From assembly GCF_001522545.3 (NCBI RefSeq), contig NC_031773.1, positions 40,444,434 to 40,508,433 of the forward strand: 64,000 nucleotides of DNA, given 5' to 3'. Under the pieces are notes generated by a model, which saw only the letters and a program-made list of their open reading frames with translations, was not told the DNA's origin and ran no database searches. The position numbers and the translations under genes are program-made. Positions 19,004-53,300 of the stretch are shown in pieces. The stretch's first letter is position 1; each line of letters starts with the position of its first letter. Origin of the DNA: Parus major. Its lineage: Eukaryota > Chordata > Aves > Passeriformes > Paridae.

Positions 19004-19304
19004 GTGGTTAAACTGTTGAACTGAACGGAGAGCAGTTGTTAGCCAGGATGGAATGTTACATTTTAACAGTTGCCAACTGCTCCTCCAGCTTGGGACATCA
19101 GTATGATGCTGCTACATGACCTGTCCAGGCTGAACATCTTCCTTTCTCTCTATTGCATCCAAGTAAAATACAGAATATCAGATTGTTTCAAAGAGTTGCC
19201 CATTATGGTGCGTTTTTTAATGTGGAATGTAACAAACAATTTAGTGAAGCTCAAATAATACCCAACTTCTTGCTGATGCAACTGTGGTCTTAAAAACAAA
19301 TCTC

Positions 19305-19645: not shown

Positions 19646-19753
19646 AGTCTACAGGAGTCTGCTCTCGCAGGAACCGGAGCTGGGGAAAGCGCAGCTGCCC
19701 CCGGTCGGGCTGGGCCGGGCCGGCCGAGCGGATCCGCCGAGTCGCAGGGCCTG

Positions 19754-19943
19754 NNNNNNNNNNNNNNNNNNNNNNNNNNNNNNNNNNNNNNNNNNNNNNN
19801 NNNNNNNNNNNNNNNNNNNNNNNNNNNNNNNNNNNNNNNNNNNNNNNNNNNNNNNNNNNNNNNNNNNNNNNNNNNNNNNNNNNNNNNNNNNNNNNNNNNN
19901 NNNNNNNNNNNNNNNNNNNNNNNNNNNNNNNNNNNNNNNNNNN
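19754..19943. other. Assembly gap (190 N)
   Basis: A run of N placed ten bases before the RLIG1 start codon in very GC-rich sequence, where sequencing often fails. The RLIG1 5' UTR and core promoter are partly hidden. The gap length may be nominal. Confidence 0.99.
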
Positions 19944-19953
19944 GGCCGGGGCC

Positions 19954-20043
19954 ATGAGGCGGCGGGGCGCGGTGCAGCGCAAGGTGCCGTGTCTGTTCGT
20001 CACCGAGGTGAAGGACGAGCCCTCGGCCAAGCGGGAGCGACAG
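19954..20043 (+). CDS. RLIG1: RLIG1 coding exon 1
   Basis: Start ATG in GGGGCCATGAGG. Encodes [20 protein letters not shown] and ten more residues. Donor CAG/GTGGCT, phase 0. The start agrees with the human N-terminus (QRKMPCVFVTEVK). Confidence 0.93.
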
Positions 20044-26140: not shown

Positions 26141-26353
26141 TCAATGATGAGGATACTGAACACTACCCCAGTCAACAGAACTGTTGTCTGGATTATTCTG
26201 AATGCCAAACTCTTCATAAAGGTGCTTCAATCTCTCTTCTAAGATAATATTTTTTTTTAATTCTTCTTTGTAGTTATATTTTAGATCCTCAAGTTCTTCA
26301 AAAAAGGAAGGACTATAGGTTTCCAGTTCTCTTCTTAGCTCTTTTGTCTCTTC
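26141..26353 (-). CDS. CEP290: CEP290 exon 54 (terminal coding)
   Basis: Acceptor [28 protein letters not shown] is conserved. The last 25 residues, ending SVQYPHH before TGA at 26141-26143, differ from the mammalian tail. Confidence 0.95.
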   Translation of the reverse strand, partial: EETKELRRELETYSPSFFEELEDLKYNYKEELKKNIILEERLKHLYEEFGIQNNPDNSSVDWGSVQYPHH

Positions 26354-29300
26354 CTATTGAAAAGAATGAAAAGGAGTACCTTTATCCAGAACTTTGCTAA
26401 TACCACACCTTTTTTTGCCTTTTTCATGAGGGATTATATGATAAGAGAATAAGGATCTTATCTAGAAGAAAAAAACTCTAGTCATAAACAGCATCTTCAC
26501 TAAAAACAGGCTTTGTAAACAATGCTTAGAAATTGACTGTATCATTAAATATTAATTTAGCTATTAAACAGCTCTTTCTAGCTCAACATAATTTTGCTTA
26601 TTATCTTGCCTAGGATGATCCTTGCAGCTCACCTTTAATTGCTGTTTTTCGAGCTCTGAAACTTCCAGCTGTGACTGGAGGTCAGCCATTTCTGTCATTA
26701 GTTTATCAATTTTATCCTTCTCTACAGTTTCATTATGTCCTGCAAAAATAATGATTTTTTTAATGAAATTTTAAGTAGTGAAAACCCATGGCACAAATAA
26801 TCTTGTTTCAATAATTCTGCATCTCCTGAAAGCTGAAACAGTTAAGTAAAATCAATTATGATCACCAAACATTAAAGTCAGCTGGACTTTTCCTTAGTTC
26901 TTTTATAAATTAGGCAGTGGTGTCTAGTTCCTAGTTTACAGCCTCTTGCTCAAAGTAATTGATTATGGAGATTTTTATTGAAAATTCTCTTCAAAAAGCT
27001 TGTATATGTACTCAAAAATCCAAGACCTTAATCTGCTTCAGTTTACACAACTTTGACATTAATCTACTTCAAATAATTCTGTAGATTATTGCTTTGCACA
27101 CACATATTAAGCAAAAGTAGTTTTAGGCCCTAAATACAAGAAGATCTTTAGGTATTGAAAATTATTACCAGCTGCAGGACCTTCATTTGTAAAGGTATGT
27201 CTTTCGTGCTTATAATCCTCCATCTGGTTCACTAGTTCTGCTTTTTCTTTCTCTAATTGATTATTAGTTAATCTGGAATATTAAAAAATAGAATTTTTTT
27301 TAATTATTACAATATTTTAAAACATCAAATATTTAACTAAAAATTGCAGTGGTCATTTCCTGATCTTCTGGTCACTTCCTGATTTCATGTATATTAGCTG
27401 AGATACTTAGTTTAGAAGTACATTACCTTAAAAGCTGAAGCTCCTTGATGATGTTTTCCTCTGACCCTGAACCTTCAGGAAGATGTTTGAGATGCTCAAT
27501 CTTAAAAGAAAAATTAAGAAAGTTTTATTCTTGAAAACAGTATCCATGGCCCTGCAGTTCAAATAGAGTTCTCTTGGATACAGTATTAAAAAAATACTGA
27601 AAATAATACTAAGGATGTAATCAAACATTAAGCTATCAGAAAAAAAAAAAACAACTTGTTCATGTACAGTTCCCACACACAAAGCTAATGCTTGACAGCT
27701 TTTCCAAAGTTAGTAAAATCATTGTTATGTATTTAATGAAGGGCAAAGAAAAAAGTAGAAGTTAGATTTACAAAGAAAGTTGGATACATAGCTACACCAA
27801 CGTCCTGTATACATATGCTTAAGGAATTAATATGCCTAAGTCATTTAAATGCTTTAAAAATATTACTGATATGGTTATTTGCATACTTGGGTGTCCCAGT
27901 TCATTTTGAAAGATTGTATGAAAACCCTGTGATTTTGGAATGACAGCCCAGTGAGGGTACAGTGACTTGGGGTGACCTGCAAGTTAAGTTAGAAGAGGTC
28001 CCTGACTAGAGAGGGAGGGAGCCTCTGAAAGAGACTCCTGGTAAAGATGCAGGCACAAGAGTGGTTTAAATATGTGATTATATACAGTTGATGAATGCAG
28101 TGACAGTTCATGAACTCGTATGAGGTTACTGACAATGATAGGTTTTTGTTCTGTTAGTACCTAACAGGGTAAGGATTTGGGGTTTTTTACACAATCAGGC
28201 TCTGTTTTTTTGAAACATAATTAACTTTGATCTCATCCCTTAATCAGTACTTGAGACATGAAAGAAACTGGAAAGTGTGTTGCTCCCAGAGTAATATCAC
28301 AAAATGAAAGACTTCTATCTCCATGCTAAATTCGCTGCTGGTATATACTTCATGTTAATAACACTAAGATAATGTTAATAACTTTAAGGAAAAGGAAAAA
28401 CAAGAAAAAACTAAGAAAGTAATTGTTTTATAGGAATAAATTCCAAGTTCTGTTATTGAACACATCTACTTTCTTACATAATATGTAGACACACATCTAT
28501 CTATCTATCTATCTATCTATGACTTCCAAAATCAGAAGTTTTGTATTTGATACCTTACACTGAGAAGGGCCAGTACAAGTTGTCTGGGGAAGAAAATCGT
28601 CTGCATATAAATAAATGAGAAGATGGAAGCTAATGTAGGGGCAATTCTAGGACTGCACCTCTGTACTTAAAAGCCAAAAGGTGATACATCTTTTAAAAGG
28701 TACCTAAGTTTAAAATTCATCAACTCTTCCACACGTACAATAGTACTTTTAAGACTACTGGAGACTGCATGTAAGGGACCACACTGGAAACAGAAATGAG
28801 GATCCTATTTAGGATAGCGAACTCAGTACTCTCCTGCCCCCCACCAAAACTGGAGGGAATAGGGAAGTCTCTGCAGCAGCCTCACTGCAAAACAAGCTTG
28901 AAAGATTTAAGACCTTTTGAAGCATCTATCTACAGGCTTTCATGTGATCACTGAAACTATAATAAAAAAACTCCAACAGAAAAATACAGTAGAAAAATAA
29001 TCATATTCCTCAGACTACAAATCAAGCATATGTACTGATAATATGTGGTAAACCTCATTAATTGGCTAAATTATGCAAATATAGCAACTATGACTGAAAA
29101 AAGCTATAAAAGAAAGGATTAGAAAAAAAACAAGTATTCTGCCACTACAGACATTATTACAAAGACAAATTAAGCATTCTACTTCCAGAGTTATCTAGCT
29201 AAATTTTACTCACTTGTTCTTTCAGGTCTTGTAAATTTTTATCAGCGTTGTGCTCACGTTCTGTTGCTTCCTGAAGCAGCCTTTTAAGGTTAGCAATACT

Positions 29301-32300
29301 TTGGGTTTTCTTAGCAATATCTGTTTCCATTTCCTTCAACTTAGTTTCCTGCATTCTGACAGTATTTTTATTTAGAGAAAAATAAGAGCAGAAGTTAATA
29401 CTTATGCAGAAACAGAGGTTAAAATATTTTTAGGAGAATAAATGCTGTAAAATACACCCTAAAATATGTTTGGGGCATTGGCCTTGAAATAACCACTGGC
29501 CTGATAAATACAGTTTGTGGAAAGAAGCATAGCAAGAAACACATCTCTAATCTTAGAATAAAGGCTTTTCTAGATATTACACTGTTGTGGTTCTCTTTTT
29601 GTGTCTACATTTATTAAAAGGGGACAGGAATATTTTTATGCTATTGTGCATAAACCCCAAACACCTGCTGCTGAAAGGATCCATGTTGCTGATGCAGGGT
29701 ATACACTAGTTGGATCTTACTTCAGTGTTATACCTTTGAAAGTATTTTTATAATGATTTATGAAAAATAATGTACTGAGAAAAGGACTAATGCAGATGCA
29801 GAAGATGAAGACTCCAAGGCCAAACAAACCTGCAGTAAATTGTTTACCCTGGAGGAAGAGCAGTCTGAGGAAGATTCCATTTTGCTTTGAGCTTTACAAG
29901 GCTACAAAAAGGTTTGTGTAGAATCTGAAATGTTGGAAAGTACTTCTGGAGGTCATGTAGCCCTGTCTCCTGTCTGAATCTATCTGGATTTTCAGATAGC
30001 AATACAGTGTCCAACACCTTGCTACCTGCCAAGGAATCTTCTGAAGGGTCATTGGGATGACAGCCCTTTGTTTGCCCTATGAAAGACTGTGTTTTCACGT
30101 ATACGCATTGGTAGTTGTGCTGGTGAGGTGCATTGCATGTTAAAGTTCCCCAAGGAGCTCTAGGTTAGTAAGGTTATGTTATTAACTTTAAAGTAAATGC
30201 AAATAGAAGGCTTTAGTTGCATGAGTTGAAATAGGCAAGTACAATTAAATGTGACCATGTATTTTGTATCTATACACAACTATGTATCACTCTCAACTAA
30301 ATAGAACCAAGTAGAAATGTTTTTGAAAAGAGGTGAAGAATACTGCTGAACCAATATGGCAGCTGTTAAGGGCCTGCTATCTTCACTGCATGGTCATAGC
30401 CTCTCTCTGCTGTGGCAATCAGCTACTTCTGTCCTGTCCTGCAGTCAGTTCTGCCCTCCTTCCTTAGACAAATTATGGTTTCATCTGGCCTTAAATAGAG
30501 ACATTTTACCTCACTGGATAGTTTGGGGGGAAGGTTAAAAAAAAAACAAAATGCTTTTTGAAGTCTCAATGAAGAAATGGCTCAGCAATATGTCAGAGTA
30601 GCACTGGACTCCCCAAGGGATCCTGTGGGAGCACAAGACCGGGAAGGAGTAAAATCTTGGACATTAACAGTGTTCTGACCTAAGATAAAATTAAACAAGT
30701 CTCTCTCCTGTCCAGCTGATTTTCTGCCCTAATAAGTTTACTGTCAGAGGTTCTGATTTTGTAGATACCTTCCATTTCTGTTTACCACTATTAAAGAGTA
30801 CTTTTTAACACATCAACTTATTTCACCCTGAAGTCATCCAGTAGTCTGGGACTAAGTATTTATTACCAAAAATTTGCTCTCTGCCATCCTTACACAGGAC
30901 ACAGGTTGTTTATGTCTCTTAATAGCATAAGCATTGTATCATTTTTCTGTCCTTTTATTACATTCCCAATTCCTACCTTGTTACAATGGACTTCCAGCCT
31001 CTGCTGTCAGCTCCATCAAGCTGGCTCTCAGCCAAATTTAGCTTCTTAATGGTTTCCTCCAGCTGTACATTTAACTTCTCATTTAATATCTCCAAGTTAT
31101 TCTTCTCTATTCGTAGCTTCTCTCCAATGTCAGCTTCCTATTGTTCGATAAAAGCAAAGCTTTATGGAATACTTAACCACACATGAAGCATGGTATTATC
31201 GCAAATGACAGTGAGACAGTGAGTGCTGATGTAGAGGAAAATGGCATCAAAGACTACTAGCACTACAACTTCCAAATTTGATCTTGGGCTAGTCCTTGGA
31301 TATCTCCTTTCCACATATAGTAAAATAAATCTGTCATGGCCATATCAGTGTTTTATCAACCATTAACTAAAGTAAAAACCATATACTTAGCGTGACCAGT
31401 GCCTAGTGGAAATAAAGGGATGCATCAAAATGATCATACCTTTTTCAGTTCTTTACGCAGTCTTTCATTTTCAGTAATGAGTTTTTCTGTTGCTTTGGTT
31501 TTAGACTCAAAACGCACACTCAGCTGGCCCTCCAGATCAAGTTTCATTTTTTCCATTTCAGACTAAAGATCAAACAATTTGTTAAAACCCATTTACATTG
31601 CTTAGTAGAAGATTTTAGATTTCCATTTAAAGCACAGGTACTTAGCACAGTGAACATTTCATCACATAGTTAAATGTATCTGCAAGGTACAATGTACCTT
31701 AAACTGTGCAGTATGTTATACTAAAATGCAGTTTTGCCTTTCTGTTCTATATATTTCATAGCTGGCCTTTCCAAAACAGTTTTGTGCCAATCAGTATCAA
31801 CAGGCTTGCTTCTCCATTTTGTTACTACCTTGCATATAAACTGTTAAATAAAGTTATTGGAGAAAATCTGTACCTTTAGCCTCTCATTTTCCTGCTCAAG
31901 ACCAAGTAATTTCTCATTAGAAACTACAGCTGGAGCTTTTTTCAGTTCTTCATTTTCTCTTTGGACTCTCTCAACAACCTTTTTCATCAAGCCAATGGTT
32001 TTTTCCAGTTCTGGGACTGTCTTTCCACTTCTACCAGCCTACAGAGGGGGGAAGGAAAGAAGTGAACAAATAGTTCATCTTAACATTCTGAGATACTCCA
32101 GATCTTACATTATTGATTATTTTCCCATTGCAATTCATACTTATATAAAAAAAAGCTTTATTTTGATACAACTTGAACACTAGAATTTCTTGCGTACTTA
32201 GCTCTCCAAAACATCTGAAGATTTATTAATACCCCAAGTCAACAGATCAACTCCTTCATTTTCTATGTTACCCTAAAGAGCTGCAGTTAAGTCTCAAAAT

Positions 32301-35300
32301 CTGCTGTACTCATGAACTAAACTGAAATATTAGGAAAATAAACCAAAGAACTACTTAATTTATTTAGCTTTTCTTGTAGAAAAATTCCCCAATCCAACAG
32401 ACCATGCAATTGCTTAAATACTAATACCATTGGGGGCACAGGGGAAAAATGTCTGGGAGCTTGAGGGAAGAAAAGAAGGCTCTTTTTTAGCAACCCTTCT
32501 TCTGCTGAATTAAAGTGACAGAAGAACTACATATTAAAGCATAAGTAGATCTGCCTTTCCAAAGGCATATATTTTTCTTGCAAAATTATAAATAAATAAA
32601 TGTGGGGGAAAATACTGTAATTTCCCTATTTTTCTTCTTTCACTACATTAAATAATGAGTTAGAAATTCTGTAAGGGAGTCTTCAAATCCATTTTTTTTC
32701 TCATCCTCTTTGTAACAATTTCCTCAGCAACCATCATTTAAAGATACTGCTGATTCTAGTTCAGGGACAATAAGGTACCTCATAAGGAAAAAGGGGAGGA
32801 TTTACTCCCTAGATTTCTACATAAATGTATAGCAACCAAATTTCAGAAGTAAAAACTACTTATTTTTCTTCTCTAAAATAACTGGAGGGATTAGGAGGTT
32901 TGTGTCAGTACACAGCAGAGTTAAAGAAAAACCTGTCACATCTTTCTGCCTGTGAATGGAGAAATATGCAGAATTTGCTGTATCTTCAGAATTTTTGTGT
33001 GAAACAGTTGTATAAACTGAATTTTCTTGTCCAAGAATACCACTACATAAGAGAGACAGGTATACAAGCACTCCATGCAAAGCATGGGTAAAAAAATGAA
33101 AAATACTTGATCATTTTCAGGTACCCCAAAGTAAAACTCATTCTCCTTGTGTAGTGAGCTACAAAGAGCTACAGAGGCACTTAGGAGCTTCTATTAATTC
33201 AGCTTTCTTTACAAGGTCACACAAATAGTTTGATAAGTGAGCAGCAGGAGACACACTGCTGAGTAGTTTTTCCCCTTAACTTTGGAAATATTGTTCTATT
33301 AAAGTAGTTGACAGTAGCTAGGGTAAACTTTTGCTGTGTCACCTTCCATAGTACAACAAACAAAAACCTTCAGTAATAGTAACTGACCCTTTTTACATCT
33401 GCATCAAAAAATTTACAAAAACATATGAATGTAATTTTCATTATTACTGCTGTAACTGCTATTTATTGTACAAATATGCTTCTGAAGGTAACCAATCAAA
33501 ATGACAAAATAAGGTCATGATAGTGCAAATATTTAATAGTTTAGCTCTAGTCCTTCTAATGCTCCTGTTAACTTAAGGTCATTATTCATTATAGCATTTT
33601 GTCAATACAATAAACAAGAGCAATTCATGTTTGGCTTTGGTTGATTCCAAGTGATTTCATTTCAGTAATACTTTGGGTTTTTTTGTATTTTATTTTAATT
33701 TACTTATGATATAAAGTGCTGTTAAGATACTCACCCCTCTAATGCTGCCCAGCTTTCGTTCAGCTTCTGCTTTCTCTTTTTTGAGAAGTTGACACATTTC
33801 TTTTAAGTCATCTACTTGGTCCTACAAACAACAAAAAAAAAAGTGATAAGCAATTTAGATCTCAAATTGAAGTGAAAAACTGGTGAACAAAATTACAGGG
33901 GTTTTACTTGAAAAATGTAAGAGAAAGCAATTTCCCATCACAATGACATTTTCCATTATTTCTACCATTCTACCATATTCAACCTTCTCATCATTCATGT
34001 AAAAACATGGAAAATTTACAGTATGTACAGAAAAAATATCCATTTCATTTTAAGCAATTCTCTGAGCTGTGTGAGGGTAAAGGGTCTAAAGTAAGATGAT
34101 GTTACCTTTAGTCTTGGCAAATCTTTATTGGCCTGCTCTAGCTGGAATTTTAGCTCTATGTTTTCAGATGACAATCTGAAATTCTCCTTTAAAACTTCTT
34201 GTTCTCTTTGATACTGGTCACCTGATCTTATTCCTGATGTCTTGAGAAAAGAGAGGAAAAAGATATTATTAAGTGGTAATGTAATTCAGTACAACTATCA
34301 GTTGTAGCTGATTAAGAGCAACAGAGAACTAGTATTTTTCACAGAAATGAAGCAAGACAATATTATTTCCAGTTTTGATCTAATCTGCTTTGATTTTAAC
34401 ACCTTCTCTTACATTTCATTAACTTGCTTAACCTTTAAGGGAAGTTTACAAATCAGTATAAACCAGTAAAAATTTCATCAAACCGAAATTACTTCTCAAA
34501 CTATTCTGTAGAAGTAAACCTCAAAGACTAAAAGATAAACAAGTTACTGAATGAAGTAAGTTGTGACACTGTACCTGGGAACAGCATCTAATTTTAAGAG
34601 CATACTCTGGTAGTTTTTCAGGTAGCACATACGTCATAAGAAATTTCAATCATGTCAAATGGATCAGAGAGCAAGCCAGGAACAGTAGCATGTCATTGAA
34701 TCTGTTAGTTCCCAAAATCCCAAGTTTTTATCCATGGAGGATCATGATTTCAACTACACAAAGATGGCTTTGCATACTTTATAGTGCCAACTGAAATCAC
34801 AGCAATACAGTAAATTTACTCTGACTAGTAAAAAGAAAAGTCTTTTAATAATTTAATAATCAGTATTTTTTACTTATGTAATTTGGGAATTAACTGTATG
34901 ATTCATTACTTTATTGCTAAATTGGAGAAATCAAGTATTTGCTTCTTTAAAGCCTCTTTTTTTTTCTTGGTGTAAATAATAACAGATCGTAAATCTCTTA
35001 AAGAATGAAGGATATCAATTAGCTCCATGTATCTTTGGATAGTCTCTGGATCAAAATTTTAGAATTGACAGTAGCTTACTTGTGAGCTGACATGCATGCC
35101 TATCCTGAAAGTATAAAGTTTGCTTTCTGGACCACTTGGTAAGTACTCTAATATCCCTGCAGACCATGCACAGGAAAGCACTGCTTTATCAAGATCAAAC
35201 TATTCTATTTCTAAATTATTTGTACTGAAGAAATTCTAGAGGGTCACTACAGTATCAAACCTCGGGCATTTCACAAAATTCTGGGATAGTTTCAACCCCT

Positions 35301-38300
35301 TCTGTACAGCCTCGGTCATTTTCCTGTTTATTCTCTGCAGTGTGTTGATTCATTTCATTATTCATATTTATATTCTCTGCTTCACAGTCATTAGCTTGAT
35401 GAGGAGGTTCCCCTGAATCAGACTGATTGCAGCTCATTTTATCAGCATCAGGCTCCTCTACACATTCCTCTTCATCCACATTTGATTGCTTGAAGATTTC
35501 TTGCTTCCTCTCTTCTTCTTCTTCTTCTTCGCATTTCTCATTAACTTTTCCATTTTCAGGTTGGGTTATATTTTCTTCTTTTTCACCGCAGTCCTCTTTA
35601 CCAGCTTCAGCTATAATTTTGGTTTTCAGTCTTTCCCTAGAAACATCTGTGTCCTTGCATTTCTCACTATCTTCAGGGTGCTGTTCAAGAGACACTTCTC
35701 TGCTTACATCTGCAGCAGCCTCCTGGCCTTCATTATGCATGATGCATGTTTGCATGCCTGTGTCCCCATCTACTTCACTGCCATCAGTAACTCTATTATT
35801 AGTCTGATGTTTGATTTCATTCCTATTTGAAATAGATTTCTTGTGAAGGAATTTCAGATACTTTTGTTTACTGACACTGATAGGAACAGACTTGGTCAGT
35901 TCAGTTTGGTCACATGTACTCTGAGTCAAGTTGAAGATAGAGTGAAGCATGAAAGAAAACCAGAACACAGTAAAAGAAAACAGAAAACAGAAAGGAAAAT
36001 AGAACCTACTGTTAAGTCTATTCTTGAAAGATTAAGAAAACATAAAAATGCAAAATTTGCAATATAATCAACCTTGTAAAAATCGAAGCACAGCAAAAAC
36101 ACCTAATATAACTGAAATGAAGCTTAGTATTTCCCCAAACTCTGTGCGTCTTAAATTTTTAATCAATATATAGTATAGAAGTAGTCTCTCAGCTGCAGAC
36201 TCATATTTAAAAATATATTTTCCTTATTTCTCTGCATATGCTAGGATGCTCACTATTCCAGCTTCTACCTGTAGGACACAGAAACCTGAGGACTTTGGGG
36301 ATTTGGGGATTTTGGTTTGTTGGGTTTTTTAAAAAGCACTAAAAGATGAGTATTTCATATCCTGCTGTAGAATACTGTCATTCAAATAAAACCAACTAAG
36401 TGACAGAATACCAAATAGAAAACAAATACTTTTCATAAATAGTATTCTAGATAATATGGTTACATTATTAACTTACCAAGGGTCTTAAAAATGTCTCTCT
36501 TGAACATTGTCTCTGCAATGCATGAAGCTTTTCCTGGAGGCATTGATTTTTGAAGTGTAAATCTTCTACAACAGAGTCTCGTGGGATTGCTTGCAGTGTT
36601 CTACATCAACAAATGAATCAAGCCAAAACAAACAAATGGCTATTAATGCAGAAAAACATCCCTGAAGGTAAAAGCACCGTGAAATTCTCGATTTCTACAC
36701 TGGATTTTCCCAGTGTTTCTAAGCTAGTTATTCTAAATCAATGTTGGTCATATTTCAGCTAGTCCCAATGAATGGAAGATACTTGCTTTAGCAAAAGGAA
36801 TCGGCTCTTTTCAGATATGTACAATTTCTATTACTCAGGTACATTATCCACTGTGATAGTGGATACACTGGTTAAGAATACATTTCCTAGCTGCACTTAG
36901 CAGTTCCAGTAACTTTCACCAACTCTAAACTGCTGTTAAAATTTTTCACAATAGGAGCCATATGTTTTTCATATTATTTAGCTTTTTAGAATAATGAACC
37001 AATGCTACATAGTCTCTGAACATGCACAACTACTCCCAAATACTTGTAAGTTAGTTCATCACAGACTCTAAGTTAAATTCCTGTTTCTGTTTTTATTTCT
37101 TGAAGTATAATTTGCCTGTTGGAGACTATCTCATTCCATATATTTTTTTACTAATTTAGATTTCTCACTTTTTATATTTTTTTAAAAAGCATCTCACCTC
37201 ATGTGAGCAACTTCATTTTCTAACTCTAGATTCCGTTTTCTTAGTTCTTCCACTTCTTTTTCAGTTTCTGTGGCTCTTACTCCAACAACACGGTCAACAG
37301 TGACACCAGTAGTTTTCAATCTCTTCTGTAGAGCAACTTTCTCTTTTTCAGTCCTGCAACATCCAGTAAATTTACATTTTAAAGTTTATTTACTAACTTG
37401 CTTTCTTGAGGAGTGAATACTTTCTGTCTTAAAGAATCCACATTTGCGTTTCATCTGCTCACTGAACCAAACCCCCTTTTTCTGTTTAATAAGGTTACTG
37501 TATAGACAGTAAAGCCTTACCAAAATCCCAACACAGGGTATGGACATATGGTTGTTTCCTGAAAAGGCTTCAAACTCATAATCCTAGAATTGTCATTACT
37601 GCAGTAACACTACAAGTATCCAGTCCTAGCAACCTGATTAAATAACACCATCGTGAGAAACAGCCTGTCTTCATAAAGCTGTTATTTGCTTTATGAGAAT
37701 AATAGAATGCTACACCAGGAAGCATAATAAAGGACTTAAATTAATTTTATCTTGAGACACTTTCTTCTGATAAAGGTAGTTGGCTTCCATAAGGGAAAGG
37801 ATACTAGAGGAGCTAGTAGTCTGCTGCTTGAAAATTAACTAAACCTTTTAGTCTCAACAGCAACGTCAAATTCTCGCTATCGATCTTATAAACATAACAA
37901 ACTGCAATAATTACTATGTCAAACATATCTGGACTTCCCTTATGATATAATTTTGAAGCTGAATCAATTAAAACCAACTCACTTTGTATAAATTTCTTTC
38001 AATGTATTCAACTGTTTAGATAAAGCATCTGCTTCTTTTTCCTTTTCCCTTAGTTTGTTCCGCAATCCTTCCATTTTGATTTGCCATTTTTTACCTTCAT
38101 CCCATCTAATTATTTCCTCCTTGGAGGTCTGTGAAGAACATAAACAGATTATGTATTTCCCTTTGATTTCTTCTCTTAATGCAAAACAAGCAAACACATT
38201 TAAAAACTAAGAATGATATATCCTTCATTTATCAATTTAAACTAGGAAGCCATAGCAGGCATATATTATTTACCATAGCTAAGTAGCAGTTTCTTCACAT

Positions 38301-41300
38301 TTTTTCTCAAGTTCACTTTCCAACTTTTTAATTTTTTTCTTAAGCACATCCATCAGATTTTTTCATCAGCTTTGCTCTGAAAAATTCAGCTGGATACACT
38401 GCTATGATTGGTGTATAAAGCTAATGCAGTTGATTGCTCCTACCAAATTCTTCCTTAGCATTTAATATTCATCTTACAAATAAAAGGAGTGAAGCATTTT
38501 ATGAAATTAGAGGTGCTAGTGCAATGTGTCCTTTTACTTCAAATTACAAGATTTAAGACAAAGTAGGTTTTTCATACGGTAATTTTCAACAGATCTGTCT
38601 TCTACAACTCACCAGGGACTTGCATGCCCCTGTTGGACAGCTTCTTTTCCTACAAGAAATGGCATCTCTACTTAGAGTTAATAACTCAGTAACTATAAAT
38701 TATACATTGGTTAAAACCTGTAACTATAGGATCACAAGTGTCTACCAAAAAATCACAGTCAATATTCGTATAAGAAATTTTTGGTTTGGTTTGGGGATTT
38801 TTTTGTTTATTTTCAGTTGGAATTATTCCTTCTCTGGTTATTCCCTGTACTTAATTTTCTGTTTTTGTTCTAAACCGTTACTGCTATAAAGCAATGGAAT
38901 GAAAGGAAAATCTTGGAAAACAGGAAAAATGCATGCCAAGTGTGAGAAAAATACCTCTACACATAAAGCAACAGGCATTGAAAACATTTAAAATTAAATG
39001 AAAGCCTAAGTGCAGTCCTAGAATAATGATAAACATCATACATAAATAGTTTGACTCTCATTATGCAAGTGTGCTATAATATTCCAGTACACTTTATAAT
39101 TAATATGAGAAGCCACTAATTAGATAGTGACATAGTAACAAGCAAGAAACCAGGAAAACACTTAAAAATGAACACAACTCTAGTCACTCAGAACTTCTTG
39201 AATGTGGAGATCACAATTGTCAAGAATAATCACTTATAGAGATACCATCCCTTTTAAGATTCACTCTTTTGCTACTCAGTATTTTGTGCTTTTACTATTG
39301 CACTGGTTTCACAAAAGCACATTTGGCAGAACTTATGTAATCAATTTCACTGCTACCTAAACAATCTTCATTTTCTAAGATTTTGTAGAATTAAACATCC
39401 TTTAGAAAAAGCCAGGAAAACATTAATATATCAGTACAAAGTAACAAGAGCAGTAATAAAGTGCATGAGAAACATGAGAAGTTGCACCCATGAAACTACT
39501 TATTTTCTGATCAAGTTTGGCTGGTATGTTTTAGAAGAAATAGGGAGAGGTGAACAACCTTGGCCTCGGCTAATGAGCTCTTTCAAGGCCATGATATAAA
39601 TAGCACATACCTTGTCTTCTCTTAGACTCTTCTTTTCTGTTTCTTCACACTTCTTCTCAAGTTCACTTTCCAACTTCTTAATTTTTTTCTGAAGCACATC
39701 TATCAGATTTTGTTCATCAGCTTTGCTCTGAAAAATTACAGAATTTTACATCTTCAAGTTAAGTGACTACTGAGATTTTTTTCTCCAATTAAAAAACAAG
39801 GATTTTAATTCCAAATTGGCAAAACTAGTTTAAAACCTAAACGATCTTTTAAAAGTTCTCTTCAAATCATTGTAGTATTGGAATGAAACTTTTCCCTCTG
39901 AACTGAATAATCAGCAGCAAGTAGCTGAAATTTAAAAAATAAATGGATGATTCTTCTGTAAATCCCTTACTTATCTTCTAAAAGGAGAAACACGGACAGC
40001 CAGGAAGAAGACAAAATACCATTTTCCCAAGAAGCTATGAAAGTGGTTATTCAACTTCTCAGACTCTTCCAAACGTATTTCAAGAAGTACACAATTTTTT
40101 TTTAGCTGAGGCATAGAAACAAGCTAATAGCTTACATGTAACCCAACTGATGAGGAAAAAAATAAACTTTTTAATCAAGTGCGAGATACTTATATTTTCG
40201 TTCCTCCCAAACCAGCTCCTCTATACCAAGATCAAACATAGTTTGAAAAGTCGCTTCTACCTGAATGCTACTGCTTAGCCTCCTAATCCGGTTCTTCAGT
40301 TCTTCATTTTCTTTTTCTATTTCATTTTTTTCCCTCGATATTTTAGAAAATGCTTTTTCTTTCTTCTGAAGCTCTTGGCTTAACTCATCCCTTTCATTAG
40401 ACAATGAAGTTTCCTTGCTTTTACTTATTTTAAGGTTATCTGTAAGTTTTGTAATCTGATTATTCAATTCCTCTATCTGTGTCTAGAAGAAAACAAAAAA
40501 GTCAGCAAAGGCCTGAAATCAGCTTGATTAACAATACAAAAAAGCAAATCAATGACATTACCTAGTACTCACCGTAAGCCCCTTTGTTTCTCTGTCAACA
40601 ATCTCTTGGACATTCATATATGCCTCTTTTTGTGATGCAGCAGAAATAATTTGCTGTTCAGCATTGGCAGTCATTTCTGCTCGGAGTTCTAGAAGTGCTT
40701 TACTCAAAGCCTGAAAATAATTAATTCATTTTTTTTTATAAGTGAAGATGCTTCTACAAAACAAGTGTCATGGTTTAACATAGCTTGGTTTTTAGTTAAA
40801 GAGAAAATCTGTCAGTTATGGAAGTGATTCTCTGAGAGGACTGCTAACAGCTTTCTCTGGACTTTACAGAGCTAATTAGCTGGCTAGTTCTGAATATTGA
40901 CACATTGTTAAACCACTAAGAAAGCTGGACACACCTCTGTGAATAGCACATTTGAAAACGAAGCCTGTAAAAAGCTCTCTTGTTTCTGGCCTTTGAACAG
41001 GTAACTGGGCACTGTCCAGGCCGGCCCCGCATGGATTGCGCGCCCGGGCCGGGCTCTGCTGTGGCGCTGGCCCCTGCCCGGGGAGCCCACGAGCCCCATC
41101 CCAGCGGAGCGGCTGGGGCTCCTTCCTAGTGGCACCGGGCCTCTTTTTGGCAGAACCCACCGATCTTTTTTTCCGGTGGCACCGCTGGGCCATCCCAAGG
41201 CCGGGAGCAACCATGCGGCCGGGACTGGCGCCGGGAGCGGCCTCGTGGCCGGCGCTGGAAGCAGCCCTGAGGCCGGGAGCGGCCACGGGGCCGGGACTGC

Positions 41301-44300
41301 TCGGCCGAAATCGCAGCGCCACGCGGCCACAGCTATCGTGGCATTGTTTGCAATGAACTTTGTTTGCTCAGCCATGCTTTTAGCCGGCCATGCTGCGGAG
41401 AGAAGGACAAAAGTAGCGGCAGCAGCTTTTCATTCTTTTCGGCATCCCGCATGAAGAGAATACGCGGGGTGGCACCAGAAACTCGCATGGTGTCGGCGGA
41501 GGCCTCACAACCAACAGCGGCACGGCCAGCGACATCCTCAATGCAGAGCCTGGATGAGATCAATCTTTTCAGCGCTGCAGAACTCTGTAAAAACTGTTTC
41601 AGTTGATATAAATTGAGAACAAATGAACCTATGAACACCAATTCTCTCCTGAATGAGGAAAAAAGAAAGGGTGAAGACACATAAATAAAACAACTGAGGT
41701 CAGTGAAGAAGGAGTCAAAGTCTAGATGAGAAGAGATTGAGGAGATGCCCTAGTTTTGGGCTGAAATTCTCTTGTAAGGCTATGGTGAAGAGGTAATTAA
41801 TACATCAGACTCTTATTTCCCCCCTGTAACTCATAGAATGCATTGGGGGGATGTAGTATTCTAACCACAGCCATGAACCCATGCTGAAGTAGCTTGAACA
41901 GAAAAAGATGAAAGAAATAAAGTACCTTGCCCCAGGGATAGAAGAAGAAAACCTCTGTTCCTAGAGATAAGAGAACTTTTGTTTCTGTATTAGAACAGAT
42001 CATTCTTAAGATTGCACCCCAATAAGCTGAAATGGCCCATGGTGGTAGTTGTGGGAAAGCTACCAAAACTGTGGGAGGGACTTTCACACTGCAAACATAT
42101 TTTCCTTTCCTGGGTGGCTGATTTGCTGTGACATTGAAGCCATGAGAGAATTGTTTCTTGTCAGAAGTCTCCATGGCATGGCAAGAGAGAGACTGCTCCC
42201 TAAGAAAACCAAAGAAAAACTATTTTTAAAGATGGTAAACTGACTGGAAGTCCCAGGTTTTGTCTTTTTATGTTGTCAGCAAGAAAAAAAAAGTGTGGGG
42301 GGAGAAGAAGTCTTCTGAAGGGTAATTCTGATTTCTTCTTATTTTCTTTTAATTATGTTAATAAAGTTTTTATACCCTTTAAAGTTTGAGCCTGCTTTGC
42401 TCCTCCTAATCCTTATCTCACAGCAGAAAATGAGTAAATAATTCTATTAGGTGCACTGGTGTTTGGCCAGCACTAGACCCACTACAACAAGAAAAGGCAT
42501 TTTTCTTTTACTTTGGCATGTTATGTGGTTATATTGTACCTCCTGCTCAGCGATACAAAGAATTCTTAACCATTAGGAAAGATTTAGTATTCAAGTGACA
42601 TAGAGATTAATTTTTATTGACTAACTTTGTGCTGGTTCTCTTTTATGGCTAACTGGCTCTTCAGCTGTTCCACCAGGTTTTTCAGTGTTGCTGTGGGTGC
42701 TCTATTATTTGCTTCTTTTTGGACCTCTAGTTCAGCTTTAACATTTGCTAATTCCTTCTCCTTCTGAGATAATATGTTCCTCAGTTCATTTGCTTCTTCT
42801 CTTATTTGTTCCACATCAAGTGTGTGCTTTTCTTGAAGCCTAATAAAAAAATAAGCATTAATAGGGTACAATGTAAAAATTAAGTCAGCAAACTCTAAAT
42901 AAATCACAAAGGACACAATATTTTATTTTTATCTATTAAAGAAAAAGATACTTAGATCTGGAAACAGCAAAGAAAAATTGACTCAACAAAGGCAGCCCCC
43001 ATATAATAAGAAAATTACTCATGAAAGTCAGCAAAATTACATTATAGCATTGTTCATTTTCATTCCTGGACCTTACAGGTAAAGAAATCATCATATTTTT
43101 TCCTTTTAAACATGGGTTAAACTTTCATGAGTTTAAACTTGTTCAGCAGCAAACCCAAATGGATGTGTCATGAAAAGAAAAATGACTGAACGCAAGCCAG
43201 CAAGTAATATAGTAAATTAAAAACAATGCTCTTTTTCACTAAAAGGCACAAAGCTAACAACTAAACAGCATTTTTCCAAGCCACAGTCCCAGTGAAGGAC
43301 TACAGGTTAAAAATAACTTACAATTTCCAACTGTACTAACACTTTTGAGATTTTTTTTCAGCTAGATCTTAAAGTAAGCAAAAACATGTTAAATTTGATA
43401 GATCAGTCCTGTAGCAGCAATACATAATTGACTTGAACCACTTCAATTATGACTAATAGTTTAAAAACTTACTGGGCTCTGATTATCTCAAACTCATTGA
43501 TTTTCAATACAGTAATTTGTTTTTGTTTCTCCAAATCAGATGATGTTTTCTTTAATTTTCCAACAAGTGAAGCAAGAGAATGATCCTGTTCTGCTACAGT
43601 TTGCTCTAAGTGATGAAAATATTTGCTGTTGGAAAGGGACATAGAGGTCTCTTTCCCTAACTCCTGTAAAACACAACAAATGCAAGTGGTAAACATTTTC
43701 AACTTTAAGCAAAAGATAAGCATTACTGATGCATTTTTAACTAATTCCTAAATATAATCAAGCATTAATAGCTACCATTTATTTACTGAGATGTGATTTT
43801 TAGTTTACAGAGAAACGGGTCAGGCTGCTTTGAAAAGAGCTTTGAACATCTAATGATCAACAGAATACAGCAGAATACTGGTTTCACCTTATCATAAAGT
43901 GCAGAGAGAAATTTTGAATTGAAATGGGTTAGCTTAATATACCCATACACTGAATGAGAAGAAGGGAAAGCAATATATAACCTATATATAACCCTCTTCC
44001 CTAGAATTCTCCATGAATTCGGATGATAGGCAAAATGCCCATATATACTGATGTGGTAAATCTGGATTTTTACACTTGACTTCTAATGCCTCTCATGTGA
44101 AAACTCTCAAAAACAATACAGCAGTTATTTATCAATGATATATATATCATCAGTTATTACTCACTTTTGACTGCAAAACTGTTCTTTCCAGCAACAATGT
44201 AAAAAAATATCAGAACAACTTCACTAATTCTACAAATACATGACTCACCAAAGCAGTCTCTTTGAATTTATTAAGGGAATTGTCAGTGTACAAATCTAAC

Positions 44301-47300
44301 TTCTGGTGTAGTACTCTTATGTCTTCCTCATGCTTCTTTGCTATTTCCTCTTGTTCCTGTTAGTTCAAAATAAAACTGGTGATATACACTATCACAGAAA
44401 GTCATGAAATGGCAGTGTCTTCAAGTTGCTTGTTCACTCATTTCTCAATATTACTTCCCAGATTTTCCTCTAATTCTGTACGTTTTTAAAATTCTTTTCT
44501 TCTAGCTATAATCAATGTTTTTCTTCTTTTTTTTTTACACTATTGGGGAAAAAACATAAACTCTTGCAGTTTTAAGCTATGTAGCAAGTAGTATGGTGTA
44601 ACAGCACAGAAGCTGGAGAACAAAACTGTTGGTGTTGGTCTTCAACAACTGTGACTTTCAGTATGGACAGTAATACCCATAACCAGGTACATTTCCAATT
44701 TATGTACTTTAGACTATAGTGTGATCCCATGGATGGAATGCTAGCACACAGAGCACAACAGGTTCATTTAAAAACTGCATCTTCTGAGTTTTTTTCCAAA
44801 CAAAACCCCTTGATTTCTCCCAAAAGAAATAGCTACAGGTGTTAACCAAAGAACACTAAGCAAAGATGATAGAAAGTCTGCTTTGGAAATGTGCTTTGGC
44901 TCACACTACAACTGATGCATGTTTGGTATTGAAATATCTCTTTGACAAAATGTTTATGCTTTAAAATACACTTTATGGATATAAAGAAAAAACAATAAAA
45001 ACTATGCTTAAATAATATAAAGTATGCTTAAACACACTGTTTATGCTTTAAAAAATGCTTTAGCTTAAAATATGATTTAAGAATATTATTCATAAGTGTA
45101 TGTCTTTCTTGTACTTTCCAAATTCACTACCAGATGCAATCTGCTGCAAATACTGAAAATCCCAAAGAAATATACAAAATATACCAAGACCATTTAATCA
45201 GAATTTTAATTTTCTTCATGTCACACTACTTTAATTCCAAGATGGACATTTTATTTATAACCTCTCAATTAAGCAAACCACTATTCTAAACAGCTAAAAA
45301 ATTCTATATGAATTTTCCACATATAATGTAGTTCTCTCTGTTCTGTGTGAGATCAGAAACCTTTCTTTTTAGATTTCACTAGCAATGAGAAGACAAAGAA
45401 TCAACTAAAACAACTTGAAAATGGAAGAAATTTCAGAAAAAGAAGTTTAATTACCTCTCTTGCTTTAGCAAGCATATGTTGGTATCTTCTTAACACTTCC
45501 TCCTTTTGATTTAATCTTGCTTGCATATTTGCAATGGTTTGATGAGCAATTTTCATGGCATGATGGTACTCTGAGTCATCTTCTTGTTTGCTAAAGTCAG
45601 CCATTATTTTCTCTCCTGATATTGCAGGTAATCGAAGTCTTAATTCATTTATAACTTTGTCTCTTGATATAACATTTTGTTCAGCTTTCCACAGAGCAGT
45701 CTCCTTTTCTTTTAATTTCTACAACAAAAGGCAATTTCTGCATTTCCAGAATTCAAACACTGCAAAAAGATCTTACTTTTCAAGAAATGTAGCAGAAAGA
45801 TTTATCTAAATGTACATATAAACACAAAACACTTTTGACTGGGTTCTGTCTATATGGGATTGAAATGATGACAATGTCCCAGAATATCATAACTGTGTCT
45901 TCATGTATTTGCTTGGCACAAGACACTTAAACAATTAATTTTGTCCTACCAAATGAAGAAGTGGTGTTTTACAAATTATTTAAGAACCACAAAGTATCTT
46001 CTGTAGCAGAGTAGCAATTTAACAACCCAAGATAAAAGTATTTTGTAGCACTTGCTAAATTTAACTAGGTATAGTCAACTGAATTTTGTACAGCAAGAGG
46101 CATCTTACCCTACTAAATGGATGAATAAAAACATTAGAAAACTCTCCTTTATGATTTGTTCCAATGGAAAAAATATTTCATTTTACTCATAGTTTGATTA
46201 TATTAATTACATTTTCTGAGTGTTAAATATGTCATTTAAAAAAGGGTATTTTTCATGGAATAAAAAAGTAAAAGAGTATGGAAACACAAACTTCACTTTA
46301 AATTATAATTTATACATTAAATTACCTCCTCCAGTGATCCGCAGGTTGCCCTAGTTTCCAGGATTGTTCGAATATGTTCCTGAATCTTTCTTAAAGCCAA
46401 CTCAAGCTGCTGTGGGATTGGCAAAGCAGGATCTGGAACAGAGCCTGTAGCCTCTTCTAACTGCACAGAAAGATTAATATTCCTGTCATCTGACAGCTCT
46501 TAAAAACATGCTTATATGTGTACTCTTAGTGTATATACCTTTAAAGCTGTGCTAAGTATTTCAGTTTGTTGATGATCATACTGGTCTAACTGGCGCTGCA
46601 GTTCTACTTCTCTCTGGTCCCAAGCCATTTCCCTTTCTTCATGAAACTGTAATAAATGTTTGATAGAAATAGTTTATTTATTGAAGGCAATGGGAATTTT
46701 ATAGACAACTTAACTGAAAAAATAGTTCCCAAAAAGTAAAACACTCGAACAACAACACTCTATTAAAAAGGATTAGGAAACCAAGATATAAACACCTGTG
46801 TTACAAAGTTGTTAGAAAATCACTTAGTAAAATAAGGAACAGGATATTTTTTCAATAGCATGCAGAAATACATACCTTGTTCTGCTGTACAATTTCTTCT
46901 TCCAGGTTGCTGATTGTACATTCATATTCAGAAATGATATTACGCAAATACTTCACCTCTTCCTTTTGCTTGACTAATTCTCGACTGAGTTTAAGTTCCT
47001 GCAGATGGAGTTCCTCCATTTTCATGTGCCATTCAATTACCTTGCAATGAATAATACACAGTATATTATAATTTACCATAGACCAACTAGATGCAGCTTC
47101 ACTCTTTGGCTTTGAGGAAGGATGGAACTTCTCAAACTAACTGGAAAACAGATATTTTGCCTTTTTAAGCTTCTACACTTTTCTTCAGTGAGGAAGCATG
47201 ACAAGAGTATGAAACTGCAAGAGAATGACTGATAAGTACAGCAGCCAACTGGAGAGGCAACAGGTTTCCCTTACACTGACAAAAGTGCATTGGAAACAAT

Positions 47301-50300
47301 TTTCAAATGATCCAAGTTATACCTTATGTATCTGTCCAGACTGAACCAAAAAAAAATGCAAAAATTTTAGTTTGTATTTTCTAAAAGAGCAAGTGAATTC
47401 CAAACCATTAAAAACTGTAGGTATACAAAAAAATGCCCTTGTACTAAGAATAACAGACATGTCAAAACGCTCTAGAAAAACATTTGAAAACTGACTTAGA
47501 ACTAAAACATACCCAAAGCGTTATAACTATTGCTTATATGCAGACAACTTTGGTCACAACAGATATGATAATATCTTGAAGAAAAATGAGAAAGCCTTCT
47601 TAAGATTTCAGGGTGACTTTGCTTATGGTTGCAAAACACGCTTAAGCAGAATTACATAAGCACAGCAATATTTCTAATCATGCTGTCTAAATTACTGCCC
47701 CTGGATATTTTTTAAAAAAGACATGGATGTGGAAATATTTCAATGCAAGCTCATGGAACAAAACTTCAGAATAGTACTCTGTATTTAATTTAATTAATTA
47801 CTTAATTCAATTCAAAATTTGATACAATTTAATATAATTGCATTTATAGTTAGAATTTAGTTACTATGTGCCTTAATTGTACACAAAAGAAGATAATTAA
47901 TATATATAACTGCACTGACTTTTACAGAAAGCAAAGTATGATAGCTGTCATATTCTACAAGTGTATTTTGAAATCAATAAGTTTTACATTAAAACATATA
48001 TTTAGAGAACAAACTGAGCTGAAACTTTATTTTAATGCAGTTCAGATAAGCAAAGCTATTCAAAGCTATAAAATCACAAACCTTTTGAGCTCCTTTTGTA
48101 TCCTTCAATGCACTTACTAATTCTTCTAAACTTTTCAGTTTCAACTCCAGCTCTAATGCTTTGTTTTCTGCATTTCGACGCTCCTGCTGGGCATGCTGAA
48201 CTTCTTCCAAGATCTTCAGTTTGTCATTCTGTAGCTGAATCATTGTTTTAGAGAATTTTTCCTGTTGTGCTAAAGGCAGAGCACCACTAAACTGTCGCCG
48301 CAAAGACTGAACCGTCTGTTGTAGATGTTTGGCTCTATTTCTTCCTTCAAGTCGGGCAAAATATAAGGCTTGATCTCTCTCATCAAGTTTCCGCTCTAAA
48401 CGTAGATTATGGATCTCCATCTTCTGTAGTTTCAATTTAAACTTCTCCAATTTGCCCACAGCAACAGACTCACTACCTTGAAGGGCTATGATATCTTGAT
48501 GCAGTTTTGCAATAATTGCTTTTTCATCTGACTGTGCCTAAGAACAAAATTGATAGAACAAATTTATTTTTCATTTTAACACAGAATATGTTAACACAGT
48601 TTATATGTAAATATAAACAAACTACATTTTATATATATGAATTATATATTGCATGTATTTTATTCCACAGAGAAGAGTAAGAATCAGCCTCTAACAGGCT
48701 TTTAATTTTTCCACTATTGTTTCTACAGCCAGATTTTAGAAGTACACCTTTTCAGACACTGATCTTCAAAATAGTCTCTTTCCAAAATACCAGAAACTGA
48801 GGAAAAAATGTGTACGTAAACTTAGAAGATATGGTAATGTAAAAGTTGACACAACTGTTGGATTTAAGGTCTCAAAACTCTCTATAATGTGAAACCAAAT
48901 TATTTTAGCTAATAACAAAACAAAATAGGAAACCAATTGCAAATCTTCAATATTTACAAGTAATTTCTTGCCTTGAAAAAATTGATCAGACTTTCCTCAC
49001 CATGAGTTTTTCCTTGACCATGAGCTATTAAAGATACAGGAATGAATACTACGTAATCAACACAGAAAAAGGTCAGGACCCATAATAGCTTCACAGCTAG
49101 AAATGAATAAGTGGAGAAGGGAATAATAAATTTAATACAGAAATTTTGAAAAGGTATGGGCACTACAAGGACTAGCTTGCTAAGATTCTTCTGAAACACT
49201 TCTGCAGTTTTCAAACTCATTGCAAAATTATTTCATTTCCTCTCATTCCAGGGAAAAAAGAATCAGAACTGCAATTTTAATAAAGGCTGAATTTTACCTG
49301 ATAATCTAAAATTTGCATTCTAAGATATTCCACTTCTTTATCTCTGTATTGCTGGCGTGCCTCCAGAGCTTCAACTTGTTTTTGTGCTACATCAGACAGT
49401 TCTCTTAACCTTCCAGGGAAAACAAGAGTATTGTGTCACTTGGAACCACCGAATAACTTTTTCTACATTGAAGATACTAAGCAAAGATAGTTAATATGTT
49501 TCCTCATATCAAAACATTTGGACTTCACTCTTTTCAGCACACTCTACTGTTTAGAATTCTGGTTAAGAAAATTCTTCTGTATTGCCTCTCAACTTTATTA
49601 CAGGACATTTTCCTAAGTATTATAAAGAAGTTTGCTAGCAGTAACCTACTTCCATAAAACAATGCCATGGTTTTTTTACCTAAGCACCTCTGTCCTCTCT
49701 TTCTCTGCTACTTCATGATATAAATACTCACTATTTTCTAAGTGCTCAAAATGTTTCATTCTCAATTCCCTTCTCTGCTTCTGCAAATCTAATAACTTAT
49801 TTGCAGTGCCAAAATTCACTGCAAGTATCCCTATAGATTTTGCTGGTTTAGGCATATAACAGGATTACATTAATTACTTGAAGACAAATGTTCATATCAA
49901 CATATCTAAAAAGCTCAGTTTTCCAATTTATGCAAAGTTAATCTCTTCTAAGCAAATAGAAAACCTCCCTCCTACTGTGTCTTAATGTTTGAGATATGAG
50001 TCTTTCAAAGAAAAATCTGCTTTCCAATTAGTTCTATGAGATTTTCATACACAGAATGGGAGTTGTGGCACAGAAACAAAACCAACCCTAATTAGTGTAA
50101 AAATACTACTGTAAGTATCTAATTGCACAGTTACCCTATTTATCCAGGCCAGTACTTAATTCCTTGTTCAAATTAAAATGAAACAAATTGCCTTCTTTAC
50201 AGTCAGGAATTAAATTCTTCATTTTCAATGCCAAGTTTGGCATGCATATATGCTCAAAAAAACAGGTATTGAAAATTGGATGTTAGTGATACACAAGTAG

Positions 50301-53300
50301 TGTATTATGTAAGACTAGTATGCCTGAATTTTCACACATTTCTGAATATACAGAATTCAAAACTTATAATTTCAAAGACTTACTTTGATACTTCAATCTT
50401 GAGCTCCATCTCACGCTTCTCTAGGTCCATAATTTGTCGTCTGTCTGCATCACTTACTGCCTTACTTACACTCTTTGACAGTTCATCTCTTAAATCTTGT
50501 TCCACTTTCTGTGCCTCAAGATTGATTTTGGTGAGCTTAAAAAAATCAAAACCACAAATAAACAAACAAAATGGTATCCTTGGCACATAGCCACTCAAAC
50601 TCTGCAATGAAATAGCAGCACCAAAAGTACTTTTCTTTTTCAGTCATTACAAAATACAGTTCAGCAGTGATGAGGTGGTGTTCAAAAGCCAGTTTCCCTT
50701 ACTCTTTGATTAAACATCTTTTCACTTGCAGGATTCCATGCACATAGGAATGAATACACAATTTGGCACTGAAAAGAATTCTAAACTAAACACAATTTTT
50801 ATCAGTGAATTGTCTTAAAACAGTTACTGCAATAACTTGCTCCTAAACTAAAATGGAAAGTAAAAATAGATTTAAAAAAAAGACTCTAAACACTTTAGGA
50901 AATTAACAGTTTTACAAATTTATGTACTGTCTTTTATAGTGGCATTGGTAACACATAGAGGTTATAAATGCCAATACTGACAATAATGTTGTTCTTTTAT
51001 TTTTTCTAAAACAACTTTCTTAATTGATATTCTTTCAAGGAGCCCGATTTTTCAAGTTGATTATCAAACACTGAGTAACCAATATTTCAACTCAAACCAA
51101 AAGACATTAAAAATAGATAATCTTAATCTATCTTAATCCTAACACAGAGAAATCCCAGGACTTAATTAGTGCATACATTTGTGGCCCATTATTCTGATAA
51201 CACTTCTCTTAATAAAGTAACTGATTTCCTAAACAAACAAAAAGAAGTGCAGGGTATCCTCATGTATCTGGAAAACTAAAAGTAGAATGCTGAAGTTGAT
51301 TTATGAGTTAAAACAATGTATAGTAGACTTCTAGCTATCAGTTCTTACACTGGTATCACTTATAACTTACACTTATCACTTATAACCTTGTTATCTCTTT
51401 CTCAAACAAAAAACCCAATTATTAGGATTGGCACTAGATTAGGAGGTACTGACAACAAGAGTATATGAAACAGAAAATGTATGTCCTGGAACTACAGAAA
51501 TGGGGCAAAAAAGGGATACAGAGGTACTAGTAAGAAAGAATGGCATTAGTAGTTCATAAACTCAGAATGAAGGATGACCATCAGACCTAAAATAATAATA
51601 AACACAAAAGAGAATATGAAAAATGTGATGCTAGGGTGCATCACCTAAAGCATTTCTTATAGAAATAAAAGAACCTATTCCATCAGAAAAGGCTTCAGCA
51701 ATACTATATAATACTAATATAATACTATAATAATACTAATGCTGAAAAGCTTTATACACTTTCAGTTACTCCACCTCCCAGATTAATAGCAAACACTCTA
51801 GCAAAGGACAAGGAGTGGAAATGAATACAACCTATCAGCATTCCTATCAATTATTATATTTCTGCCCTTGTACTAAAATTATAGACCAGCAATGTCACAA
51901 GAACAAACCTGTATAATTCCTATAAATAAATTTATTGTAGAAACTATAATAAAGTCTCCTGTTAATAAAAAATAAATTTGTATAAGAAATTCAAATACAA
52001 ATAGTGTGGGCAAAACACCCTAACAAGTTTAAAACTGATAGGAATACTAAGATTCATCAGCTTCAATGGCACATGACTTCTATTTCTGTACTATAGACAA
52101 TGTGTGGCATAGGACATGACCAGACTGTAACAAAATCAGAACACTATCATTTGCACAAGGGATGTAAAGTTCTAACCTTTTTTTTTAAATATTTGGAAAT
52201 GGAAAAATTAATAAGGAAATAAGATCATATGGATCAGACAAAAGAAATAACAAGTTTGGAAGAGACTGTTTTCTTGCAGTCTGCTGACAAAACTAGAAAA
52301 TTATTTGTCAAGATGCTTTTAATGTGATTTACTATTAACTAACTTCTAAAATAAACTGCTGACAAATGGATTAGTTCTATTTTTATCAGCGTCTTGCATA
52401 TGCAAAATTGCAGCTTTTAAAGGCTGCAAACTATTTTTTGCATCTTAAGCTTATTTGTTGACACAAATTGGTATTATTGATATAAATAATTTTTGAGAAG
52501 CTCAAAGATATGCTTTTAAGATATATCTAATTAGGTTGTTAAATCTCAGCAGATTTACCTCAGCAAATTTTGTTTCCAATTCAAAATTACGTTCTTCTAT
52601 TTGCTTTACAGTACTCCTTAAGTGTTCATACATTCGTTGTGAATGTTCTGCTCTCTGTCTTTCATTTAGTTCTTTCATTTCCAACATAGTGATTTTCTTA
52701 GAAATGGACAAAATCTCACTGTTGGTTATTGCTTTTGTGGCTTTGTCCATGGCATTTTCATCCCCTACAAGAAAAAAATACCTAAATTAAGAAATACACA
52801 AACCGATATAACTACGAAAATTATTTCCACCATGAAACTGAACATGAGTTTTGCTTTATCTGTGTCAAGTAAACTTTATCACAAAATCTGTGCTATTTTT
52901 TTTAAGGTGGAGGTATGGTTATCTTGCCTTACTACATGTATGAAAAGTATGTAATTTGAATAAAATACTGCTATCAATTATGAATGCACGTATCTACAAC
53001 CATGGTTATTGAGACTGAAACTACTTTCAGTGTAGCCTTTCACCTTATGCTTAATACAGCTGGCAAATCTAAAGGAAATTTAATTTAAAATCTGTAAAAG
53101 AAACTGGATAAAGGAGCTTTTCCCAAATAATGGGAATGAAATCTATACAAAGAAACCCCAGCTGTTAAGAAAGAATACTTTGTTACAAGGCATGAAACTA
53201 GCAAAAAAGAAATCACATTCTTGACAACCTCTGAAACATTATTACTGACAGTCAAGTTAGAACATAGTAAGAAAAAAAACCTCAGGTGTTGCATTAAAGC

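Follow-up and report, generated by a model that had tools for sequence, protein, structure and literature searches.

A probable optional exon of CEP290, encoding an acidic insert, in the great tit and in other birds, turtles and squamates

Long alternative exons that encode disordered segments occur as a general kind in scaffold proteins, and CEP290, the gene considered here, is a central human ciliopathy gene. In the mouse retina, Musashi is reported to promote the inclusion of photoreceptor-specific exons through UAG triplets in the proximal downstream intron (PMC9509328, PMC4991804), and mouse Cep290 itself has a photoreceptor-specific microexon that could be deleted without any phenotype being detected (PMC9509328, PMC4991804, PMC6952364). 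We analysed a window of 64,000 nucleotides from the great tit, Parus major (contig NC_031773.1; all positions below are those of the window), whose minus strand carries at 35261-35920 what is very likely a genuine optional exon of CEP290, older than the split between birds, turtles and squamates. That this stretch is a coding exon of CEP290 seems almost certain.

The candidate exon shares with the long disordered alternative exons of scaffold proteins its symmetric phase, its acidic disordered product and the occurrence of gene models with and without it. Like the mouse Cep290 microexon (PMC9509328, PMC4991804, PMC6952364), it would be an optional exon of this gene, but the microexon is at most 30 nucleotides long and traceable to fish (PMC9509328), against 660 nucleotides here. 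The existence of the exon is already on record in automatic gene models: NCBI models of CEP290, for instance isoform X2 of Parus major, contain this exon with identical junctions, as a product of automatic annotation. No paper describing the insert exon or its function was found among the open-licence papers listed, judged by titles and the beginnings of abstracts. The mouse microexon is, we assume, an early exon, and would hence lie elsewhere in the gene than the insert, whose site we place approximately after residue 2046 of human CEP290.

Exons of the host gene were mapped by tblastn with a human CEP290 query, which matched exon by exon over 56416-26201. The flanking exons are in phase 0 at 36477 and 34240, the two borders that a preliminary description of this DNA had correctly placed. 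Of the 28 junctions in the resulting splice model, 22 were present in one listed CEP290 model (P0024) and three in other listed models, while three were wrong (donors 53562, 40227 and 27233); the three introns concerned were kept among the control introns for the stop-frequency, open-run and motif counts given below. Between the flanking exons, the minus-strand frame 36031-35258 remains open for 258 codons, in line with the more than 230 first announced, and is closed by TGA at 35257-35255; counted from the acceptor CAG/A at 35920 (the slash marks the exon border), 221 sense codons are left. The 3' splice site CTTGACTCAG/AGTACATGTG opens the exon at 35920 and a possible exon end is located at 35261, before GTTTGA. 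The stretch has an AG acceptor, a GT donor, a length divisible by three and phase 0 on both sides, as expected of a cassette exon. The symmetric phase had been rightly described, whereas the acceptor, then called good, is of average strength (71% pyrimidine, CAG).

The preliminary description had also judged such an open frame unlikely by chance, assuming about 4% of stop codons. The judgement stands although the assumption does not: stop codons make up 6.4% of the gene-strand triplets in the remaining CEP290 introns, thus giving P = 4.5e-7 that a frame beginning at a fixed point stays open for 222 codons. A run of 222 codons was reached in none of 60 simulated 64-kilobase sequences (fifth-order Markov, six frames), in which the longest open run was 200 codons and the mean of the longest runs 140.

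Using as query the region around the insert in the spliced window protein, insert included, we recovered as best match the NCBI isoform X2 of Parus major CEP290, 100% identical over 335 residues and including both predicted junctions. The best 120 of 1581 CEP290 matches were then classified, the presence of an insert between the exons being judged by alignment. In 92 of these 120 models the two flanking exons are separated by an insert of 180-220 residues, a proportion that is no frequency because a query containing the insert favours models that bear it. The extra in-frame exon first proposed is supported both by the great tit model and by these 92 matches. In two other models (P0105 and P0113) the insert was present with a neighbouring exon missing or altered, and one (P0109) stopped within the insert. 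The residues E-M-P-E or a near variant stood directly before the next exon in 87 of the 92 inserts (exactly CEMPE in 50), the lizard and sea turtle inserts ending in CEVPQ, YEVPQ or CEMPQ. Support also comes from 22 further open reading frames (ORFs) that cover the exon, five of them NCBI bird proteins and 17 others: in 21 a Val directly follows the last exon codon, indicating that the GT of the donor is retained, and in the exception, P0016, the shifted reading would still fit GTT at the donor.

Homologous inserts were recovered at the same site in bird, turtle and lizard models, and the exon is therefore not bird-specific. The species comparison and the tree drew on 60 of these 92 models, each from a different species: 54 birds (including ostrich and emu), two sea turtles and four squamates (Gekko, Sceloporus, Anolis and Varanus); the 32 models left out were further isoforms, one subspecies, three additional crows and one additional manakin. 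With a profile built from the bird inserts, scores were 164-169 bits for the two turtles and 28-33 bits for the four squamates; with a profile of the squamate inserts, they were 111-114 bits for the turtles and 38-62 bits for three birds. In 15 of 15 such tests across birds, turtles and squamates, the real score was matched by none of 500 shuffles. The simplest reading of these sequence comparisons would be an exon older than the split of the three groups, so that the insert, first presented as lineage-specific, deserves this term only in a wider sense covering birds, turtles and squamates, its age having been underestimated. A search with a turtle insert returned ten matches, four turtle and six bird models; it needs shared words of five residues and missed the insert-bearing lizards. 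No crocodilian, amphibian or mammalian model with the insert was present among the matches listed, which is no evidence of absence, and mammalian CEP290 has, to our knowledge, the direct exon junction without insert.

At the protein level, a search of the great tit's own genome recovered one place for the exon, plus one match at E 1.5 that was taken as noise. An origin from a repeat or a paralogue was rejected at this level on account of the single place; a transposon may have been the source of the exon.

The great tit insert consists of Asp or Glu for 25% of its residues and has a net charge of -30 in 220 residues, and in ostrich, goose, two turtles and four squamates, the eight further species for which it was counted, the net charge ranged from -18 to -27. 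The charge-hydropathy relation put the insert on the disordered side, and AlphaFold2, with an alignment of 23 sequences, produced a low-confidence model (mean predicted local distance difference test score 49.6, predicted template modelling score 0.10) whose single short helix spans residues 18-25. Searches of Pfam and PDB with the insert gave no family and no PDB sequence at E up to 10. Composition and structure prediction thus agree with the acidic and disordered product first described, and the insert is probably intrinsically disordered. Its identity to the great tit sequence decreased to 0.58 in ostrich, 0.40 in a turtle and 0.24-0.25 in two lizards, against 0.66-0.82 for the flanks. Conserved patches were observed within it, one from the tit to Lepidochelys, together with the exon end. 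On a fixed tree, the FastTree branch length of the insert was 2.0-2.3 times that of the adjoining CEP290 stretches after and before it in birds, and 2.7-2.8 times in all species.

Several observations weigh against a genuine and optional CEP290 exon. An evolution two to three times faster than that of the flanks may reflect tolerance of the insert rather than a function of its sequence. The two exons are joined directly, without insert, in 25 of the best 120 matches, 13 of which are named "CE290 protein, partial" while others are NCBI or Ensembl-type models, and gene models in general may derive partly from ab initio extension or from other species. Five of the 92 inserts, from ostrich (two), emu, the pigeon Caloenas and the flycatcher Myiozetetes (P0088, P0103, P0106, P0107, P0108), end before E-M-P-E, and the 3' border of the insert thus varies between species; the early end suggests another donor or a modelling choice in these five. 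The tortoise model P0113 continues beyond the E-M-P-E end. Of the 22 ORFs covering the exon, one (P0016) is frame-shifted near its end, and another (P0023) has lost the terminal stop and reads 11 extra residues. Finally, the donor GAG/GTTTGA is weak, a point absent from the preliminary description: it scores -1.12 on a weight matrix, below all 25 confirmed modelled CEP290 donors (22 confirmed via P0024, three via other listed models); the only donors with lower scores were the three from wrong junctions, which were set aside.

We took the name "CE290 protein, partial" to denote homology-based annotation, which would miss the exon, and the 25 insert-less models all come from songbirds. Some gene models thus contain the insert and others join the two exons directly, a result on models and not on reads, and judging from these models a real alternative inclusion is probable.

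One rival explanation makes the stretch an alternative last exon: the donor would be read through, translation would stop at the TGA, and intronic polyadenylation would produce a shortened CEP290, a mode that can coexist with that of a cassette exon. Bases +4 to +6 of the donor are an in-frame TGA, and an unspliced donor would therefore end the protein one codon later. The Anas acuta isoform X4 (2248 residues) ends with ELCEMPKV, exactly at the intronic TGA, and the weak donor and an AATAAA at 34915 are consistent with the same outcome. However, this isoform is the only one of the best 120 models to end there, and an incomplete model or introns retained in the underlying RNA data may account for it. 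We consider the alternative last exon rather unlikely, and it is likewise doubtful that a splice-or-stop truncation is used in cells.

Another proposal concerns the regulation of an optional CEP290 exon rather than its existence: the exon would be photoreceptor-specific and activated by Musashi at downstream UAG clusters, like the known photoreceptor exons of Ttc8, Cep290, Cc2d2a and Prom1. Over the initial 100 bases of the intron, no other of the 64 triplets was as enriched as UAG, with five occurrences where 1.58 are expected (Poisson P 0.023 without correction). Five UAG in 100 nucleotides were reached by none of 25 other CEP290 introns (those of at least 120 nucleotides among 27) and by 1.5% of 2204 sliding intronic windows, and UCUU, UUCU and CUCU words before the exon outnumbered those of all 25 other introns. 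However, the motifs were picked post hoc, the UAG count was reached by 1, 1 and 4 of the 25 other introns with windows of 150, 200 and 250 nucleotides, at least three UAG within 40 nucleotides also occurred in 8 of 27 other introns, and UCUU-type words were nearly as dense before the acceptor at 34240 (9 against 10 in 100 nucleotides). The upstream side was not unusual by the YCU/UCY motif (Y, pyrimidine) either: an upstream cluster of at least five PTB motifs, enriched around such exons and not strictly required, was not found, the longest YCU/UCY cluster having three (PMC4991804). Furthermore, mouse experiments on conserved photoreceptor exons concerned exons of at most 30 nucleotides, and their deletion gave no detected phenotype (PMC9509328). 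Control of the exon by Musashi in photoreceptors appears unlikely on balance.

A nested gene of its own within the intron, coding for a short acidic protein that starts at an ATG some 30 bases ahead of the acceptor and ends at the TGA, would agree with the separate "uncharacterized protein" that NCBI lists in five birds (P0006, P0008, P0012, P0018, P0020; Geothlypis, Zonotrichia, Balearica, Lathamus, Cyrtonyx) and with the termination of 20 of the 22 ORFs directly after the Val that follows the last exon codon. However, the start codon is the choice of the ORF caller, the stretch is part of CEP290 in the 92 models described above, and the turtle and lizard homology is bounded by two CEP290 exons. 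Four of the five uncharacterized proteins begin with residues from the pyrimidine tract before the acceptor, that of Cyrtonyx beginning differently, and the five appear to be the CEP290 insert exon annotated as its own gene. We thus hold a nested gene to be very improbable.

An open frame that arose by chance in AT-rich intron DNA and was adopted by gene models in error would agree with the faster divergence of the insert, with the ability of automatic annotation to take in long ORFs and with a gene-strand open run of 173 codons, the longest in the other modelled CEP290 introns, but it was rejected, and is given next to no credence, on the improbable length of the run of 222 open codons and on the homologous frames that species from lizard to tit have at this exon junction.

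Table 1. Features on the minus strand of the window around the candidate CEP290 exon
Feature	Position	Strand	Basis
Probable CEP290 cassette exon, 660 bases, 220 residues, phase 0 at both ends	35261..35920	-	Open frame; Parus major CEP290 isoform X2 with both junctions; homologous inserts at this exon junction in other models
Pyrimidine tract with 3' splice site ACTCAG/A	35921..36000	-	Sequence; 71% pyrimidine, CAG
Weak 5' splice site GAG/GTTTGA; intron +4 to +6 an in-frame stop TGA	35255..35263	-	Score -1.12
UAG cluster, five triplets within 61 bases of the intron start; may be Musashi sites	35200..35249	-	5 in 100 nucleotides against 1.58 expected; weak
AATAAA, possible poly(A) signal for a read-through transcript	34910..34915	-	Motif scan only
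Upstream CEP290 exon	36477..36600	-	tblastn and splice model
Downstream CEP290 exon	34106..34240	-	tblastn and splice model
Modelled part of CEP290 with 29 approximate exons and 28 junctions, three of them wrong	26201..56416	-	tblastn and splice model; junctions checked against listed CEP290 models

Other parts of the window showed features of their own. Inside a CEP290 intron, 41001-42000 has a GC content of 54%, against 35-37% in the adjoining kilobases, with long open frames on both strands, one of which was tested and had no Pfam match. Past the 3' end of CEP290, 19241-20353 is a GC-rich stretch (45-48% by kilobase) with a run of N, an assembly gap. On the minus strand, 27-377 gave a match below the curated cut-off to the endonuclease-reverse transcriptase family PF14529 (E 0.0008) and is probably an old piece of a long interspersed nuclear element, which we take to be CR1.

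With an optional CEP290 exon as the preferred reading, inclusion would add an acidic disordered linker of about 200 residues to a break, containing Ser, Pro and Gly, that separates two coiled-coil stretches in the C-terminal half, and skipping would give CEP290 with the direct junction. Both forms would exist as RNA, inclusion being regulated with the weak donor as a possible control point, and failure of the donor would stop translation one codon later and leave CEP290 without its last segment. A flexible negative spacer would alter the reach and the partner access of the CEP290 C-terminus at the ciliary transition zone. A three-way switch between skipped, acidic-spacer and stop-truncated forms, kept across birds and perhaps all sauropsids, in which photoreceptors or other specialised ciliated cells would make the choice, tuning transition-zone geometry, is a speculative and rather improbable extension of this scheme.

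The finding suggests that differences of about 220 residues among bird CEP290 annotations are partly technical, and that some bird "uncharacterized proteins" are a CEP290 exon read as its own gene. About 200 disordered residues are apparently tolerated at this point of CEP290 in birds, turtles and lizards, marking a site that accepts a large change of length and that may be useful for the design of shortened or tagged CEP290.

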